The notes beneath the pieces are model-generated. The model was not told the DNA's origin and did not search any database. It saw only the letters and a list, made by a program, of their open reading frames with translations. A stretch of DNA of 64,000 nucleotides, taken from Bacteroidota bacterium (GTDB lineage Bacteria > Bacteroidota > Bacteroidia > B-17B0 > Aurantibacillaceae). Positions 54,401 to 63,220 of the stretch are shown here, piece by piece (the first letter of the stretch is position 1; each line of letters starts with the position of its first letter). The position numbers and the translations under genes were made by a program. The stretch lies in NCBI GenBank assembly GCA_029237825.1, contig JAQZBQ010000001.1, positions 310,001 through 374,000 of the forward strand, read 5' to 3'.

Positions 54401-56680
54401 ATGGGACACATTCCGGACTTAATATTAGACCTTGCACTCATCCTTATAGCCAGCTCGGTGGTTGTGTTGCTATTTAAACGAATTAAACAACCACTCGTTC
54501 TTGGGTATATCATTGCTGGTTTTTTAGTTGGTCCATATTTTAAATTGTTTCCCACCATTGCTGATTTAGACAATATAGAAATCATCGCTGAACTTGGTGT
54601 TATATTTCTTTTATTTGGCTTAGGACTTGAATTCAGTTTTAAAAAATTAATGCGGGTAGGTGGTTCTGCTTCCATTACAGCATTTGTCGAAATCATTTTT
54701 ATAACAACCTCGGGATACCTTTTGGGGAAATGGTTGGGTTGGTCAACAGTAGACAGCTTATTCCTCGGTGGTATGCTAGCAAGTTCTTCAACTACAATTA
54801 TTATTCGTGCATTTGACGAATTGGGAGTGAAAACGAAGCAATTTGCGACCATCGTTTTTGGAGTTTTAATTGTTGAAGACATTGTTGTGATTCTCCTGAT
54901 GGTATTACTATCCACCATGGCTGTTACCCAACAGATACAAGGAGGGGAAATTGCCTTCACGGTTTTGAAATTGTTATTTTTTCTTGCGCTTTGGTTTATC
55001 ATGGGGATCTTCCTTCTTCCTTCCTTTCTCAAAAAATCCAAAAAGTGGTTAGATGATGAAAATCTACTCATTCTCTCACTGGGACTTTGTCTTGGAATGG
55101 TGGTTCTCGCAGTAAAAGCAGGATTCTCAGCTGAACTAGGCGCATTTATTATGGGCAGTATCATCGCGGAAACAACCTCTGCTGAAAAAGTAGAGCACTT
55201 AATCAAACCAATCAAAGATTTATTTGGCGCTGTTTTTTTTGTTTCCGTCGGGATGCTCATTGACCCTCAAACCATTTTGCAATATAAATGGTCAGTGATC
55301 GCTGTGACGCTTTTGACTTTATTCGGAAAGATCTTCAGTACAACAATCGGAGCGGTCATTTCAGGACAACCAATGAAACAATCTGTTCGTGTAGGATTGA
55401 GTATGGCTCAAATTGGAGAGTTTGCATTCATTGTAGCAGCGCTGGGAGTTTCTCTAAAAGTGACCTCGGATTTTTTATTTCCTGTAGCAGTAGGGGCTTC
55501 TGCAATTACAACTTTTACAACACCCTATTTAATCAAATACTCCGATCCGCTTTATAATTTTATTGAAAAACTTCTGCCAGACAAACTGGTGACCCGATTA
55601 AACCGTTATTCATCAGATACTCAACATATACAGGCAGAAAGCGGTTGGAAGACTCTGTTAGCATCTTACGCAAAAATCCTCTTCACCAACGGAATTGTGC
55701 TGATTTCTATTGCTCTGATGATCCGGTTCGGCACGCCATATCTTAATTCAATAATTGAAAACGAAACATTTCGGAATGTAATCATATCGCTCATCGCACT
55801 TGCTTTGGCTACTCCATTCATTTGGGCAATTATGGCAAGAAAGCCTAATAACGCTATTTATAAAGAATTCTGGCTAAGAAAAAAGATTTATCGGAGAGGA
55901 CCACTACTATTCATTGAAATTGTAAGAGTCATTCTGGGAATTGTCCTCATCGGCTTATGGGCTCTCTATTTTTACAAACCACTCATAGCTCTACTCGTAA
56001 TTTTTCCGATCGCCCTCATTGTTTTTCGGATTTTCAAGAAACGTATTGAAGAATTTTATAGTCGTATTGAGGGACGATTTATTACCAACTTATCCGAACG
56101 TGATGAAGCAGCTTATAACACCCTGGAAGCAACCGTAAATCGAAAAAACACAGAAATAGAGACTCATTTAAGTCCTTATGATGCTCACATTGTGCAACTC
56201 GAAATTCCACCGCATGCAACATTTATCGGAAAAGACCTTTCGCAATTGGGTTGGCGAGAAAAATACGGAATCAACATTGTTTACATCCGACGGGGAAATG
56301 GTATTATTCATATTCCCTCCCGTGATAACATTTTAATCCCTTTTGATAAAGTCGGTTTATTGGCTACAGACGAACAAATCACCTCATTAAAATCATATTT
56401 TGATGAACAGGAAGTTGCTGATATACAGGATATCCAAATTGAAGACGTGGGTCTCCATCAATTTATAATTGGAGAGAACCATTGGCTCAAAGGGGAAACA
56501 ATAAGAACATCAGGGATAAGAGAGCAAGCCCATGGAATTGTCATTGGAATTGAACGCAGTGGTAACCGAATTCTGAATCCCGATTCTACAACCGTGTTTG
56601 AAACTGGTGACGTTATCTGGGTAGTAGGAAATATCAAAAAAATTAAGCAATTTAAAAAAAGCCATAAACGTTTGGTTTAA
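54401..56680 (+). CDS. CPA2 (Kef-type) monovalent cation:proton antiporter with two RCK_C domains
   Basis: A 759-residue protein. Residues about 1-390 form the twelve-helix Na+/H+ exchanger fold (PLVLGYIIAGFLVGPYF; ELGVIFLLFGLGLEFSF; GAFIMGSIIAE). Four more hydrophobic helices lie at about 420-550. Two tandem TrkA-C (RCK_C) domains follow, about 600-680 (ATFIGKDLSQLGW) and 690-759 (GETIRTSGI, GDVIWVVGN). There is no TrkA-N nucleotide-binding domain between, unlike E. coli KefB/C. It likely exports K+ or Na+ in exchange for H+, gated by a ligand bound to RCK_C. 22 bases before a universal stress gene. Confidence 0.87.
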   Translation: MGHIPDLILDLALILIASSVVVLLFKRIKQPLVLGYIIAGFLVGPYFKLFPTIADLDNIEIIAELGVIFLLFGLGLEFSFKKLMRVGGSASITAFVEIIFITTSGYLLGKWLGWSTVDSLFLGGMLASSSTTIIIRAFDELGVKTKQFATIVFGVLIVEDIVVILLMVLLSTMAVTQQIQGGEIAFTVLKLLFFLALWFIMGIFLLPSFLKKSKKWLDDENLLILSLGLCLGMVVLAVKAGFSAELGAFIMGSIIAETTSAEKVEHLIKPIKDLFGAVFFVSVGMLIDPQTILQYKWSVIAVTLLTLFGKIFSTTIGAVISGQPMKQSVRVGLSMAQIGEFAFIVAALGVSLKVTSDFLFPVAVGASAITTFTTPYLIKYSDPLYNFIEKLLPDKLVTRLNRYSSDTQHIQAESGWKTLLASYAKILFTNGIVLISIALMIRFGTPYLNSIIENETFRNVIISLIALALATPFIWAIMARKPNNAIYKEFWLRKKIYRRGPLLFIEIVRVILGIVLIGLWALYFYKPLIALLVIFPIALIVFRIFKKRIEEFYSRIEGRFITNLSERDEAAYNTLEATVNRKNTEIETHLSPYDAHIVQLEIPPHATFIGKDLSQLGWREKYGINIVYIRRGNGIIHIPSRDNILIPFDKVGLLATDEQITSLKSYFDEQEVADIQDIQIEDVGLHQFIIGENHWLKGETIRTSGIREQAHGIVIGIERSGNRILNPDSTTVFETGDVIWVVGNIKKIKQFKKSHKRLV

Positions 56681-56702
56681 TGAAACTAATAACCATTAAA
56701 GA

Positions 56703-57518
56703 ATGATGATCAAAAAAATATTGGTTCCAACTGATTTCTCGGAAACAGCAGATAATGCTTTAATGTATGCGTGTTCAATGGCCATAACTTTAAACGCCGA
56801 AATAGAAATCGTTCACGTTTTTATGGTACCTCTTTTAACGGCACGTGGCATTCCCATTTTACCCGAAAACGATGTCCTACAATCCGATTTAAAATACGCA
56901 ACAGAAAAACTCGAAAAATTAAAAGCTTCTGTTTCAGAACATCATAATCTGAAGTTACATATCAATGCGGTGTTAATTCATTGGCAAATCGAATTTACAG
57001 AAGCAGTTCACAACCAAAACGCCGACTTAATTATTATTGGTAATACAGGGGCTACAGGATTAAAAAAAATCTTTATGGGAAGCAACGCAGCACGAATCAT
57101 ACGCGACGCGCCGGTGCCAGTGATAGCTGTGCCACGAAATGCTTCATTTAAACACTTGAAGAAAGCAGGATTTGCCTATGACGGTCTTCCATTAAATAAC
57201 TTATCAAAGTTTAGAATTTTAAAGCTACTAAAAAGCATACCTGGTGTCACAATACAAGCTTTTCAAATCATTACTGGAAAGTCACCATCTGTTTTATTCC
57301 CGCCAGAATTAACTGAATTCGTTTCTACCCCAGAATACATTGAAATACACGATGATGATGTGTACAACGGGATTTTAACAGCAGTTGAATTAAATCAATA
57401 CGACATGGTTATTCTTCTTCCCCGAAAAAAAGGTTTTTTCAGAAACCTGATTTACGGAAGCATAACCGATCGCGTTGGTTATGAACTATGTGTGCCCTTG
57501 CTCGCTATCCGGGAATAA
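56703..57518 (+). CDS. universal stress protein with two UspA-like halves
   Basis: A 271-residue protein. The first half (about 1-147) is a good UspA domain: KKILVPTDFSETADNALMYA start, and the ATP-loop signature GNTGATGLKKIFMGSNAARI with VPVIAVP after it. The second half (about 150-271) is a degenerate Usp copy with only the end SITDRVGYELCVPLLAI recognisable. Such tandem proteins are typical of Bacteroidota. It follows the antiporter by 22 bases, so it may sense ATP or stress for that transporter (inference). Converges on the efflux operon, 4 bases from its stop. Confidence 0.87.
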   Translation: MMIKKILVPTDFSETADNALMYACSMAITLNAEIEIVHVFMVPLLTARGIPILPENDVLQSDLKYATEKLEKLKASVSEHHNLKLHINAVLIHWQIEFTEAVHNQNADLIIIGNTGATGLKKIFMGSNAARIIRDAPVPVIAVPRNASFKHLKKAGFAYDGLPLNNLSKFRILKLLKSIPGVTIQAFQIITGKSPSVLFPPELTEFVSTPEYIEIHDDDVYNGILTAVELNQYDMVILLPRKKGFFRNLIYGSITDRVGYELCVPLLAIRE

Positions 57519-57522
57519 GGAA

Positions 57523-60500
57523 TCATTTCCAACCTCCTCCTAAAGACCTGTAAAGATTAATCACTGTTACGTTTTGTCTTTTATTATAATTCACCAGTTC
57601 CCGTTGTGATTGAAGGGCGTTTTTCTGAGCCATAATCACCTCCATGTAATTCGCACGGCCAGCCTTAAATAGTTCCGAGGAAGTAATTACAGATTGCTTC
57701 AGGACTTCTACTTCCTCGGCTTTAGTCTTATACATCTCGGTAATATTTTTAATTGCATTTAACGCGTTTGAAACTTCCATAAACCCATTCACTACACGTT
57801 TTTCATAATTAATATAAGCTGTTCTTTGTTCAGCTTTAGACATCATTAAATCTGCTTTCAGACGTCTTCTGTTTAATAAAGGAGCCGCTAAGCCCGCTGC
57901 AGCGCTATAAGCCAGTGAAGCCGGTGCATCAAATAGTAACGCAGCACTAAACGATTGCAGGCCTAAAAACGCGTTGATATTGATACTTGGAAAAAAAGCC
58001 TTTCTTGCCGCAACCACATCAGCTCCGGTTGCCTTTAATTCAAATTCAGCCTGCCTTATGTCAGGACGATTGATTAACAGATCATCCGGGTTACTGGTTT
58101 TAATTGCTGTCTGTATGTGATTGGAATGAATCGTAGAATCGCGCTTAACAGCACGCGGGTAGCTTCCGCATAAGAAATTTAATTTACTTTCACACTCAAT
58201 GAGTTGTTGCCTTACCTCTAACAAACTTGCTTTTGAATTTAATAATTGGGCTCGCATCATTTCAACAGCAAGTTCATTTGCCCTGGCTGTTTGCTTTTGC
58301 ATAATTATCACGTCAAGAGCGTTCTGTTGCAATTTTATATTACTTTCTAATATTTCTATCTCCTCATCCAGTGCTAATAAATCAAAATAAGTTGCTGAAA
58401 CTTCAGCGATCAAATTTGTGACAATCAAATCCTTCCCATATTCACTGGCGATGAATCGTGCGGCGACAGCCTTTTTCTTATCCTTTAATTTACCGTATAG
58501 ATCAATCTCCCACGATGAATGTACACCTACATAATAATCGGGAAGTGGATTTGGAATTTGTTGGTCCTTGCTAATATTCGTGGAAAATTGTGTATCATAA
58601 TTTCCAACACCATCCATCGTGTAATCTCCAAATTTTCTTTGACCAACGCTTCCTGCCAATGAAAGATCCGGTAAACGAATGCCTTTTGTAAACCTAATAC
58701 CTGCTCGCGACATTTCAACTTTTTGCAAAGCCAGTTGCAAATCGAAATTATGTTTCAACGAACTATCTATTAGTATAGCCAATTGCTTGTCGAAAATGAG
58801 CTCCCGCCAGTCCTTAATCCGGGAGAAGGAACTGTCATTCCCTAAATTATAATTGGATGGAAGTTTGCTAGTGTTTTTTACAACTAACATTTCGGCAGGT
58901 TTACAACCTGCAAAGATGCCTGACAAAGCAATGATAAAAAAGCCAATGCTTAGTTTCTGGTTCTTTAAATCAACTGTGGAACGTTTTTTCTTTTCATTTA
59001 CCCCCGCAAAAAGCACATATAACCCTGGAATAACTAGTACTCCGAAAATAGTCCCAAATAACATTCCGCCCGCTGCCGCTGAACCAATGGTTTTATTTCC
59101 AATAGCGCCTGCACCCGAAGCAAGTATTAGTGGAATTAACCCTGCAATAAAGGCAAAAGATGTCATTAAGATAGGACGCAGTCGTGACATGGCACCTTCA
59201 ATTGCCGCTTCCAAAACGGTTTTGCCTTCTTTCTGTTTGTGTATCGCAAATTCCACAATCAAAATCGCATTTTTTCCCAGTAAACCAATCAGCATTACCA
59301 TGGCAACCTGGGCGTAAATATTATTCTCTAAGCCAAAGAAATACAAAGTAAAAAGGGAACCAAAAATTCCAACCGGCAACGATAACAATACAGGTAACGG
59401 TAATAAGAAACTTTCATATTGGGCTGACAATAAAAGGTAAACGAACAATAAACAAATCGCGAAGATAAATACAACCTGGTTTCCTGAAAGAATTTCCTCG
59501 CGCGTCATCCCTGACCACTCATAGGAATAACCTCGTGGTAATTTTTCCTTTGCAACCTCTTCAATTGCATTGATGGCATCACCACTGCTATACCCGGGCG
59601 CTGCTTCCCCATTTAGCATTGCAGAGATGTACATATTGTAGCGTGTTAATTGTTCGGGTCCATAAACACGTTCGATTTTGCTGAACAGCGAATAAGGAAC
59701 CATCTCTCCATCTTTATTTTTCACACGCAATTTCAAAATATCTTCCGGTTGAGCTCTGAACTTGGGGTCGGCCTGAAGCATTACTTTATACATTTGGCCA
59801 AACCGAATAAAGTTCGTCGCATAAAAACTTCCCATGAGGGTTTGAAGATTACTCATTGCATTATCAACACTAATACCCTTTTTAGATGCTACATCCTGAT
59901 CTACATGGATTAAATATTGAGGAAACGTTGGGTTAAAACTTGTAAATATATTTTTCACTTCTTTCCGCTTCCTTACTTCCTCCATAAAATTTTGAGTTAC
60001 CCTATATGTTTCCTGAAGGTTACCTGACCCGGTTTTATCCAGTAAACGCAATTCATAACCGCTGGCATTACCAAAACCAGGAACTGCAGGCGGAGGAAAA
60101 AACTGAATCTCCGCGTCTTTTATGTGCTTTGTTTTTTCCTGGAGAACAGAAATAATATCATCCGCCGTAAGGGTTCTTTCATTCCATGGTTTTAAACTTA
60201 TCGTACTCATTCCAAAGGACGCACCTGAACCATCCGTCATCATACTAAATCCTGCAAGCGTTGATACGGATTCAATTTCATTTACTGTCTTTGCTACTTC
60301 ATCAATCTCACTCATCACTTTTTCTGTTCGTTCCAAGGTTGCTCCTACTGGCGTCGTAACATTTACATACACCGTTCCCTGATCTTCCGTAGGAATAAAT
60401 CCCGTTGGTAAAACTTTTCCAACACCCCAGGTAGCAAAACAAAAAATAACAAGAACACCCACGGTTAAAGTTCTCCGATTCACAATCACACTCAAAAAAC

Positions 60501-62094
60501 TACGGTACTTAAGTGCAATGGAATCATAATACCGGTTAAACCCATCAAAGAAACTGCTCAGTCCATTTTTAGGTTTTGGATGATGGTGATGATTTTTAAG
60601 CATAATAGCGCAAAGCGCAGGAGTGAGCGTGAGAGCATTAATTCCTGAAATGACAATGGATATAGCCATGGTTACGGAAAACTGTCGGTAAAAAACACCA
60701 ACTGGTCCGTCGAGGAACGCTACAGGAATAAACACTGCCGACATAACAAGGGTAATGGCTACAATTGCACCGCCAATCTCACCCATTGCCTGCATAGTCG
60801 CAGTTTTAGGATCCGAATGATTTTCTTCCATTTTTGCATGAACTGCCTCTACCACTACAATCGCATTATCAACCACAATCCCGATAGCCAATACCAACGC
60901 GAAAAGCGTTAATAAGTTGATAGAAAATCCAAACAACTGCATAAAGGCAAAAGTCCCAATTAAGGACACAGGAACCGCCAGCACCGGAATAAGAGTTGAA
61001 CGCCAGTCCTGAAGGAACAGAAAAACTATCAGTGCGACAAGTAAAAACGCTTCGATAAGTGTTTTAATAACTTCATAAATAGACGCATCCAAAAATCTGG
61101 AAACGTCATAACTGATAGTATAATCCATCCCTGGCGGAAACGAAGAGCTTTTAATAAACTCGAGTCGCTCTTTTATGTTGGAAATTACTTCACTTGCATT
61201 TGAACCAGGCCGTTGTTTTAAAATAATAGCAGCAGATGGTCGACCATTCTCCTTCGATAAAACATCATAGTCTAATGAACCAAATTCAACGTCGGCCACA
61301 TCTTTCAGCCTCAACATCTCGCTTCCTTCAGAAACTTTAATGACAATATTCTCATACTGCTCTTTCTGAGTTAACTTTCCGGTATAACGTAGCACGTACT
61401 GTAACGCCTGTGAATTCCGCCCCGAACTCTCTCCTACCTTACCAGGGGCCGCTTCGATATTCTGAGCCCTTAATGATTGAATAATCTCGTCTGCAGAAAT
61501 TTTGTACGCATCCATGCGTTGTGGTTTAAGCCAAACACGCATGGCATATTCCCTCTGTCCCATAATGTCTGCAAACCCAACGCCATCGATTCGCTTCAGC
61601 TCCGCCAAAACATTAATATCAGCAAAATTATAAATAAACTTTTCATCCAGAGTACTGTCGCTGCTCACCAGGTTTAAATACATCAACATACTGTTCACTT
61701 CCTTTTCAGTTGAAACACCGGCTTTAATAACTTCTTCAGGAAGTTCATCCAAAACAGTAGCTACCCGATTCTGCACATTCACTGCAGCTAAATCGGGGTC
61801 TGTACCGACTTTAAAATATACCTGAATAATACTGGTACCATCATTGCCTGAAACAGAAGTCATGTAAGCCATCCCTGGCACACCATTAATTGCACGCTCG
61901 AGCGGCGTAACAACTGCCTTGGCACAAACTTCCGCATTAGCTCCGGTATACTTTGTGGTTACTGCAACCGCCGGAGGAGCAATATCCGGATATTGGGTAA
62001 TTGGCAGCTGATTTAAAGCCAATAGCCCTAGTAATGTAATAAACAAAGAAATTACGAGGGAGAGCACGGGCCGTTGAATGAATTTTTTTAACAT
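57523..62094 (-). CDS. RND (HAE1) efflux permease fused to an outer-membrane factor
   Basis: A 1523-residue fusion. Residues 1-1045 are a full HAE1-type RND permease (QYPDIAPPAVAVTTKYTGA start; twelve helices; GFSINLLTLFALVLAIGIVVDNAIVVVE, in part AIGIVVDN; GLLGKNAILIVEFA). In the proton-relay helix the usual Asp-Asp pair is Asp409-Asn410. The junction (about 1043-1064) carries a lipoprotein-type signal: basic KNQKLS, hydrophobic IGFFIIALSGIFAG, and Cys1064. Residues 1064-1523 are a NodT/OprM-like outer-membrane factor (SSWEIDLYGKLKDKKKAVAARF, here SWEIDLYGKL; NRPDIRQAEFEL). If signal peptidase II cleaves at Cys1064, the pump would yield two proteins. It lies 7 bases after the adaptor gene. 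Drug range unknown. Confidence 0.92.
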   Translation of the reverse strand: MLKKFIQRPVLSLVISLFITLLGLLALNQLPITQYPDIAPPAVAVTTKYTGANAEVCAKAVVTPLERAINGVPGMAYMTSVSGNDGTSIIQVYFKVGTDPDLAAVNVQNRVATVLDELPEEVIKAGVSTEKEVNSMLMYLNLVSSDSTLDEKFIYNFADINVLAELKRIDGVGFADIMGQREYAMRVWLKPQRMDAYKISADEIIQSLRAQNIEAAPGKVGESSGRNSQALQYVLRYTGKLTQKEQYENIVIKVSEGSEMLRLKDVADVEFGSLDYDVLSKENGRPSAAIILKQRPGSNASEVISNIKERLEFIKSSSFPPGMDYTISYDVSRFLDASIYEVIKTLIEAFLLVALIVFLFLQDWRSTLIPVLAVPVSLIGTFAFMQLFGFSINLLTLFALVLAIGIVVDNAIVVVEAVHAKMEENHSDPKTATMQAMGEIGGAIVAITLVMSAVFIPVAFLDGPVGVFYRQFSVTMAISIVISGINALTLTPALCAIMLKNHHHHPKPKNGLSSFFDGFNRYYDSIALKYRSFLSVIVNRRTLTVGVLVIFCFATWGVGKVLPTGFIPTEDQGTVYVNVTTPVGATLERTEKVMSEIDEVAKTVNEIESVSTLAGFSMMTDGSGASFGMSTISLKPWNERTLTADDIISVLQEKTKHIKDAEIQFFPPPAVPGFGNASGYELRLLDKTGSGNLQETYRVTQNFMEEVRKRKEVKNIFTSFNPTFPQYLIHVDQDVASKKGISVDNAMSNLQTLMGSFYATNFIRFGQMYKVMLQADPKFRAQPEDILKLRVKNKDGEMVPYSLFSKIERVYGPEQLTRYNMYISAMLNGEAAPGYSSGDAINAIEEVAKEKLPRGYSYEWSGMTREEILSGNQVVFIFAICLLFVYLLLSAQYESFLLPLPVLLSLPVGIFGSLFTLYFFGLENNIYAQVAMVMLIGLLGKNAILIVEFAIHKQKEGKTVLEAAIEGAMSRLRPILMTSFAFIAGLIPLILASGAGAIGNKTIGSAAAGGMLFGTIFGVLVIPGLYVLFAGVNEKKKRSTVDLKNQKLSIGFFIIALSGIFAGCKPAEMLVVKNTSKLPSNYNLGNDSSFSRIKDWRELIFDKQLAILIDSSLKHNFDLQLALQKVEMSRAGIRFTKGIRLPDLSLAGSVGQRKFGDYTMDGVGNYDTQFSTNISKDQQIPNPLPDYYVGVHSSWEIDLYGKLKDKKKAVAARFIASEYGKDLIVTNLIAEVSATYFDLLALDEEIEILESNIKLQQNALDVIIMQKQTARANELAVEMMRAQLLNSKASLLEVRQQLIECESKLNFLCGSYPRAVKRDSTIHSNHIQTAIKTSNPDDLLINRPDIRQAEFELKATGADVVAARKAFFPSININAFLGLQSFSAALLFDAPASLAYSAAAGLAAPLLNRRRLKADLMMSKAEQRTAYINYEKRVVNGFMEVSNALNAIKNITEMYKTKAEEVEVLKQSVITSSELFKAGRANYMEVIMAQKNALQSQRELVNYNKRQNVTVINLYRSLGGGWK

Positions 62095-62101
62095 GAGGTT
62101 T

Positions 62102-63220
62102 CTATTTAGCTTTCAACTGACTAATGATGGTTCGCATACTAATGAAATCCGGCCTAAGGCTCATTCCATTTTTTACATTCTGGATTCCTTCATAGATAAT
62201 TTTTTCACCCTCCTTCAATCCTTTTGTGACTATGAATAAATGCGGCAACCGGTGTTTGGATTCAATATTTCTGACTGAAAGTTTATTATCCTTATCCAGA
62301 ACATACACGTAAAGTTTATCTTGAATTTCGAATGTGGATTTTTGAGGAATGACAATAACTTCCTCATACTTTTTTCTTAACCGAATTTTCCCACTCGCTC
62401 CATGTTTGATAATTTTATCCGGATTTTTAAAGCGTGCTCTGAACGCAATATTACCTGTACTTTCATCGATCTCACCTTCAATGGTTTCAATCCTTCCCTT
62501 ATAATTATGTTCCGAACCATCCGCTAAAATGAGCGATACGACTCTTGAATCCACACTATCCTTTTTTATGTTCCTCGCGTATTGAAGGTATTCTTTTTCA
62601 GACACGTCAAAATAAGCATACACCTCGTCATTTTCCGATATGGAAGTAAGAAGGGTTCCCTCATCAATTAAGCTACCTATTTTATGAGGAATTCTGTTGA
62701 TGATTCCATTAAATGGCGCACGAATCTCTGTTTGTTCGAGTTTAAGTTTTGCATGCGCCTGGTGCGCCAAAGCCTCTTCTAAATTTGCTTTTTGCGTTTC
62801 CAATTTACTCTTTGCAACTTCTACCTCAGTAATTGATACAATCTGCTTTTCAGCTAACAGTATGGCATTCTTAAGTTCAAGTTCGGCCGCATGAACCTGA
62901 GCCGCTGCGCTTTTATACATCGCTTTAGCTTTAGTAAGTTCTTCCACATACTCCCTGTTGTTAATGCTAAACAATAATTGCCCTTCTTTCACGTATGCTC
63001 CTTCATCTACATGAAACCGTTCAAGGTAACCTTTAACACGGGCACGTATTTCAACATTCTGCAAAGCATGTATCTCCGTTACGTAATCGGAGTAAGAAGA
63101 AGTATCCATTTTAATGGCAGAGGTTACCGGAAACTGTTCGTATGACTGCTGATCATTTTTTGGCGCATTACAAGATCCAAGTAACATGATGCATCCGGAA
63201 AACAAGCTGATCTTTTTCAT
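62102..63220 (-). CDS. RND efflux periplasmic adaptor lipoprotein
   Basis: A 372-residue membrane-fusion protein starting at the ATG at 63220. Signal peptide with lipobox Cys (FSGCIMLLGSCNAPK; Cys about residue 17). Adaptor features in order: the first lipoyl half (VEIRARVKGYLERFHVDEGAYVKEG, in part RVKGYLERFHVDEG), a coiled-coil hairpin (about 80-140: AKAMYKSAAAQVHAAELELK), the second lipoyl half (IRAPFNGIINRIPHKIGSLIDEG, in part APFNGIINR), and a beta-barrel plus membrane-proximal domain. It bridges the RND permease and outer-membrane factor; here those two are one polypeptide encoded next in the operon. Confidence 0.9.
   Translation of the reverse strand: MKKISLFSGCIMLLGSCNAPKNDQQSYEQFPVTSAIKMDTSSYSDYVTEIHALQNVEIRARVKGYLERFHVDEGAYVKEGQLLFSINNREYVEELTKAKAMYKSAAAQVHAAELELKNAILLAEKQIVSITEVEVAKSKLETQKANLEEALAHQAHAKLKLEQTEIRAPFNGIINRIPHKIGSLIDEGTLLTSISENDEVYAYFDVSEKEYLQYARNIKKDSVDSRVVSLILADGSEHNYKGRIETIEGEIDESTGNIAFRARFKNPDKIIKHGASGKIRLRKKYEEVIVIPQKSTFEIQDKLYVYVLDKDNKLSVRNIESKHRLPHLFIVTKGLKEGEKIIYEGIQNVKNGMSLRPDFISMRTIISQLKAK

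Follow-up and report, generated by a model that had tools for sequence, protein, structure and literature searches.

A predicted permease-channel polyprotein with an internal lipobox in an RND efflux operon of Bacteroidota

The stretch of Bacteroidota DNA analysed here (64,000 nucleotides, hereafter the window) encodes an HAE1-type RND permease and an outer-membrane factor in a single open reading frame whose junction resembles a lipoprotein signal. We consider it likely that the product is a permease-channel polyprotein with an internal lipobox cut by signal peptidase II, and that it arose by in-frame joining of a formerly separate lipoprotein gene to the permease gene. The open frame, its domains, the loss of the start codon and the conservation of the Cys and of the residue ahead of it across independent fusions are established directly; the topology, lipidation, cleavage and sorting of the protein are what we infer from them.

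The fused frame occupies positions 57523-62094 of the reverse strand, as do all features of the fusion given below, and runs uninterrupted for 1523 amino acids, which bears out the earlier note's single permease-channel frame. Residues 1-1039 (58978-62094) match the full-length HAE1 RND permease model TIGR00915 at 1098 bits (cut-off 940) as well as PF00873, a family with 12 TM helices; the narrower NF000282 model gives 1232.5 bits, slightly below its cut-off of 1250, and homologues in the PDB include AcrB, MexB and CmeB. Residues 1065-1521 match TIGR01845 (NodT), likewise over its full length, at 234 bits (cut-off 210), identifying an OMF/NodT-type outer-membrane efflux lipoprotein with two repeats of the Pfam OEP domain (PF02321) and with SilC, CusC and OprM as PDB homologues. 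The mature channel, if cleaved, would comprise residues 1064-1523 (57526-58905). A periplasmic adaptor (MFP) gene with its own lipobox (MKKISLFSGCIMLLGSC) lies 7 nt upstream in the same operon (62102-63220, reverse strand), and the arrangement would be that of a dicistronic efflux operon in which the adaptor is followed by the polyprotein. Convergent to this operon, on the forward strand at 54401-57518, are genes that by eye encode a CPA2/KefB-like cation antiporter and a two-domain universal-stress-like protein.

The junction between the two halves has the order GVNEKKKRSTVDLKNQKLS-IGFFIIALSGIFAG-C. Its first element, a K/R-rich loop at residues 1031-1049 (58948-59004; six K/R and two D/E), has comparable counterparts in 61 other fusions; it is expected to be cytoplasmic and to correspond to the tail of the RND permease together with the n-region of a signal. 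The hydrophobic h-region that follows, residues 1050-1063 (58906-58947), falls within a helix spanning 1044-1063 in an AlphaFold model of residues 1041-1523 (mean pLDDT 77), and this helix stops right before Cys1064. The codon of that residue (TGT) lies at 58903-58905, where the earlier note had placed it, and would provide both the +1 position of the lipobox and the site of lipidation and signal peptidase II cleavage. On visual inspection and in comparison with aligned relatives, the segment combines a positive n-region (KKKR...K..K), a hydrophobic stretch (IGFFIIALSGIFA) and a small residue at -1 (G-C). Phe at -3 is less usual than Leu in a lipobox and counts against our reading. An ordinary lipoprotein signal stands at the N-terminus of its precursor, whereas the one in the window sits internally after 1049 residues, and what we claim is that this internal segment acts like a lipoprotein signal without being an ordinary one. 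The window's genome encodes both Lgt and Lsp (matches to PF01790 and PF01252), and cleavage by signal peptidase II would be the simplest reading of the junction.

In the processing that we propose, the permease half would insert with a cytoplasmic C-terminus, the K/R loop would remain inside, and the hydrophobic stretch would serve as an internal signal carrying the channel into the periplasm. After Lgt had added a diacylglyceryl group to Cys1064, signal peptidase II would cut the Gly1063-Cys1064 bond. The Lol route would deliver the channel, now lipidated, to the outer membrane, and the permease would retain the spent signal as a 13th helix. Such a lipobox-mediated cut into a permease and a lipidated channel had been put forward in the earlier note, and our analysis supports it as a prediction from sequence; the exact 1:1 ratio of permease to channel would follow only if every chain were cut and both products were stable.

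A survey of HAE1 fusions for a conserved internal lipobox, which had been suggested at the outset, drew on scans of GTDB genomes and on the families of G061 and G309, and it gave the expected pattern. It yielded 69 fused HAE1-channel ORFs, 61 of them unique besides the window's and many from cultured isolates, with hosts among the Sphingobacteriaceae (Sphingobacterium, Olivibacter), Chitinophaga, Flavitalea and others in Bacteroidota. Each of the 61 shows a loop with positive charge, a hydrophobic stretch and a Cys, which is preceded by Ser (39), Gly (13) or Ala (9); with the window included, the lipobox Cys is kept in 62 of 62, a conserved junction signal such as marks a polyprotein. Mean pairwise identity of the h-region (-16 to -2) across the fusions is 19%. 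When the 62 fused rows were scored on a tree for which only permease columns had been used, the Cys showed no amino-acid change, each other position from -14 to +9 showed between 12 and 38, and the Cys codon had been swapped synonymously between TGT and TGC at least nine times. Free-standing relatives are no stricter at -1, three of them having H, K or Q ahead of the Cys. The fused or separate state changes seven times among 171 permeases, at least six of these changes being forced, although this tree was made by a rapid method with SH-aLRT as its only support values, and long branches lead to some of the fused rows, so that the number of origins is approximate. The lipobox-type fusion appears to have arisen several times, within that approximation, and never to have lost its Cys. 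In 26 of the 61 fusions there is no ATG, GTG or TTG between the permease end and the signal, so the channel of these proteins can come only from the fused chain and the signal must act inside it. An ATG is missing at that place in 46 of the 61, and its loss seems typical of established fusions.

Closer to the window the two genes are separate, and no fused member of its own clade was found besides the window's. Among 60 relatives searched with the window query, no other fused frame remained once stop-containing frames had been set aside; long open frames listed for G443, G309, G339 and others turned out on reading to be separate genes, and the listed frames with internal stops were likewise two genes each. 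The genes most similar to the window's, those with permease identities of about 74-92%, encode permease and channel separately and side by side, and even the sister L041, at 92% RND identity, still has two genes. In most close relatives (e.g. L041, L063, L071 and L090) the channel gene overlaps the end of the permease gene in the +1 frame. A frame break in other strains had been named beforehand as the observation that would speak against the polyprotein; compared across species only, the closest relatives have separate genes and other clades fused ones. The channels near the window open with lipoprotein signals of 18-21 residues whose lipobox aligns with the window's internal one. Since the separate channels of close relatives carry such signals, the likeliest origin of the internal lipobox is the signal peptide of a once separate lipoprotein gene, kept in frame. 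That gene, overlapping in the +1 frame as it does in the relatives, would have come into the permease frame and would then have lost its own start codon.

The same comparison turned up several records whose labels and contents disagree. In two of them, named Methylomonas methanica (L064) and Candidatus Methylobacter (L073), a permease/channel pair resembles those of Bacteroidota and shares about 59% identity with the window, through either gene transfer or binning error. The permeases of L109, a complete chromosome labelled Glaciecola amylolytica, and of L105, labelled Cellulophaga sp., fall inside the window's wider Bacteroidota clade, that of L105 beside Flectobacillus, and the labels of both look doubtful.

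The most serious alternative to a genuine fusion concerns the reading frame itself. The earlier note had seen no start codon for a separate channel, and this holds in frame: there is no ATG, GTG or TTG at a usable distance, 14-35 codons upstream of Cys1064, an in-frame GTG lying 37 codons upstream at the end of TM12 and an in-frame TTG inside the h-region. The window has, as a polyprotein gene should, one ORF without a separate start for its second product. The note had missed, however, an out-of-frame (+1) ATG at 58995-58997, at which a channel gene of its own would begin if the sequence downstream had one more A. Lengthening the A6 run at 58984-58989 to A7 would split the ORF into an RND permease ending ...VNEKKKTFHS* and the channel MKRKKRSTVDLKNQKLSIGFFIIALSGIFAGC. 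A single-base indel in this run would mean that the window truly, or until very recently, held two overlapping genes and that their fusion into one frame reflects an assembly error or a frameshift of recent date, which we regard as unlikely. The change would restore separate genes in the same +1 overlap as in the four relatives named above, in a clade where the window's fusion is a singleton, and another one-base break occurs in a CzcA fusion on contig C13 of the same genome. The restored channel would, however, have a signal peptide of 31 residues, an outlier against the 18-21 of the close relatives checked, and only 5 of 104 separate channels have a signal of 28 residues or more. The start codon homologous to that of the relatives' channels is also gone from the window, an absence of the kind that established fusions typically display, and fusion is itself not a rare event, having occurred several times on the tree. 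Finally, a coding-frame HMM scan over 430 kb of the window's contig, with 400 kb from G026 as control, points to about one probable frameshift after reading of the four strongest candidates, making an error within this stretch of about 60 nt improbable beforehand.

Two of those scan candidates, at 55838 and 125878, look like ordinary gene ends when read, and another lay at 423009. The remaining one looks like a true frameshift, in a beta-barrel-like protein at about 295158 of the window's own contig (G000:C22). The C13 locus (L032:1576-6000; G000:C13, about 70575-75000) encodes an RND-channel fusion of the CzcA type with an AQ signal inside it; a frameshift of one base within a short run of G interrupts the channel half, which makes the locus either a pseudogene or the product of an assembly error. 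Single-base errors or mutations do occur in the window's assembly, as this break and the probable frameshift on the window's contig attest.

A fusion that is real but stays uncut, with the hydrophobic stretch as a plain 13th TM helix and the channel tethered to the permease, is highly improbable. The two domains are covalently joined in the sequence and their separation is deduced, but a simple anchor needs no invariant Cys with Ser, Gly or Ala ahead of it. Geometry also speaks against a tether: in the AlphaFold model about 32 residues without secondary structure separate Cys1064 from the channel fold, reaching at most about 11 nm when extended, whereas MexAB-OprM bridges 23 nm between the two membranes with no contact between permease and channel (PMC4754349). 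An uncut channel could therefore not take up its usual position in the outer membrane. Least probable of all is a separate channel made from the same mRNA, through a non-standard start or through the out-of-frame ATG followed by -1 slippage; the A6 run does form a slippery heptamer, A AAA AAC, in phase with that ATG, and a -1 slip would enter the channel frame, but no stable downstream RNA structure was found (z = +0.76 and +1.47), on which ground programmed frameshifting at the heptamer was rejected, the resulting signal peptide would be unusually long, and the 26 other fusions devoid of any start codon still have a lipobox.

The internally cut polyprotein that we favour has a parallel in the second RND class of the phylum. 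Fusions of a CzcA-type RND permease to a channel, about 1450 aa long, occur widely in Bacteroidota, and 30 of these CzcA/CusA (HME) fusions were read at junctions located by BLAST placement (L181-L210). Like the window's protein they carry permease and then channel in one chain with an internal signal, but that signal is of the signal peptidase I type: AxA or a near variant followed by Gln in 30 of 30, and a lipobox in none. The first pattern, AxA followed by Gln, matched 28, the remaining two reading YQAQ and MQAQ. There is no start codon between the halves in 8 of the 30. It is a published rule that signal peptidase I substrates of Bacteroidetes have Gln after the cleavage site (PMC5837995). 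The two fusion classes thus keep two different, complete cleavage signals, a lipobox in the multidrug (HAE1) pumps and a signal peptidase I site in the heavy-metal (HME) pumps, and both patterns point to cleavage. We think it likely, if with slightly less assurance than for the window's protein, that RND pumps of Bacteroidota are repeatedly produced as polyproteins and then split by a signal peptidase, by signal peptidase II in the one class and signal peptidase I in the other.

The components of the window's system are familiar. Its permease, adaptor and channel belong to the same families as those of the HAE1 tripartite pumps MexAB-OprM and AcrAB-TolC, in which permease and channel are nevertheless separate genes, and OprM and CusC are outer-membrane lipoproteins. 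The other Bacteroidota HAE1 fusions share the window's domain order, K/R loop, hydrophobic stretch and lipobox Cys but have origins independent of it. The cytochrome b/c1 polyprotein FbcH of Bradyrhizobium likewise joins a polytopic membrane protein to an exported protein through an internal signal cut by a signal peptidase; it differs in using signal peptidase I, in having no lipidation and in consisting of unrelated proteins. No description of RND-OMF fusions, or of RND-channel polyproteins with an internal lipobox, was found in the open-access literature, a scope that makes this weak evidence of novelty. RND permeases, channels and lipoboxes are all textbook matter, and a polyprotein cut by a signal peptidase has precedent, but the RND-channel polyprotein with an internal lipobox is apparently undescribed.

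If our reading is true, permease and channel come from one chain, the supply of the pump is tied to lipoprotein processing and the permease is left with a 13th helix. The reading predicts equal synthesis of permease and channel, and globomycin would offer a simple handle on pump assembly. Textbooks offer few examples of a bacterial polyprotein that is cut by a signal peptidase, and here two kinds of pump within one phylum would use two types of signal. Annotating such proteins as permease alone would overlook a channel.
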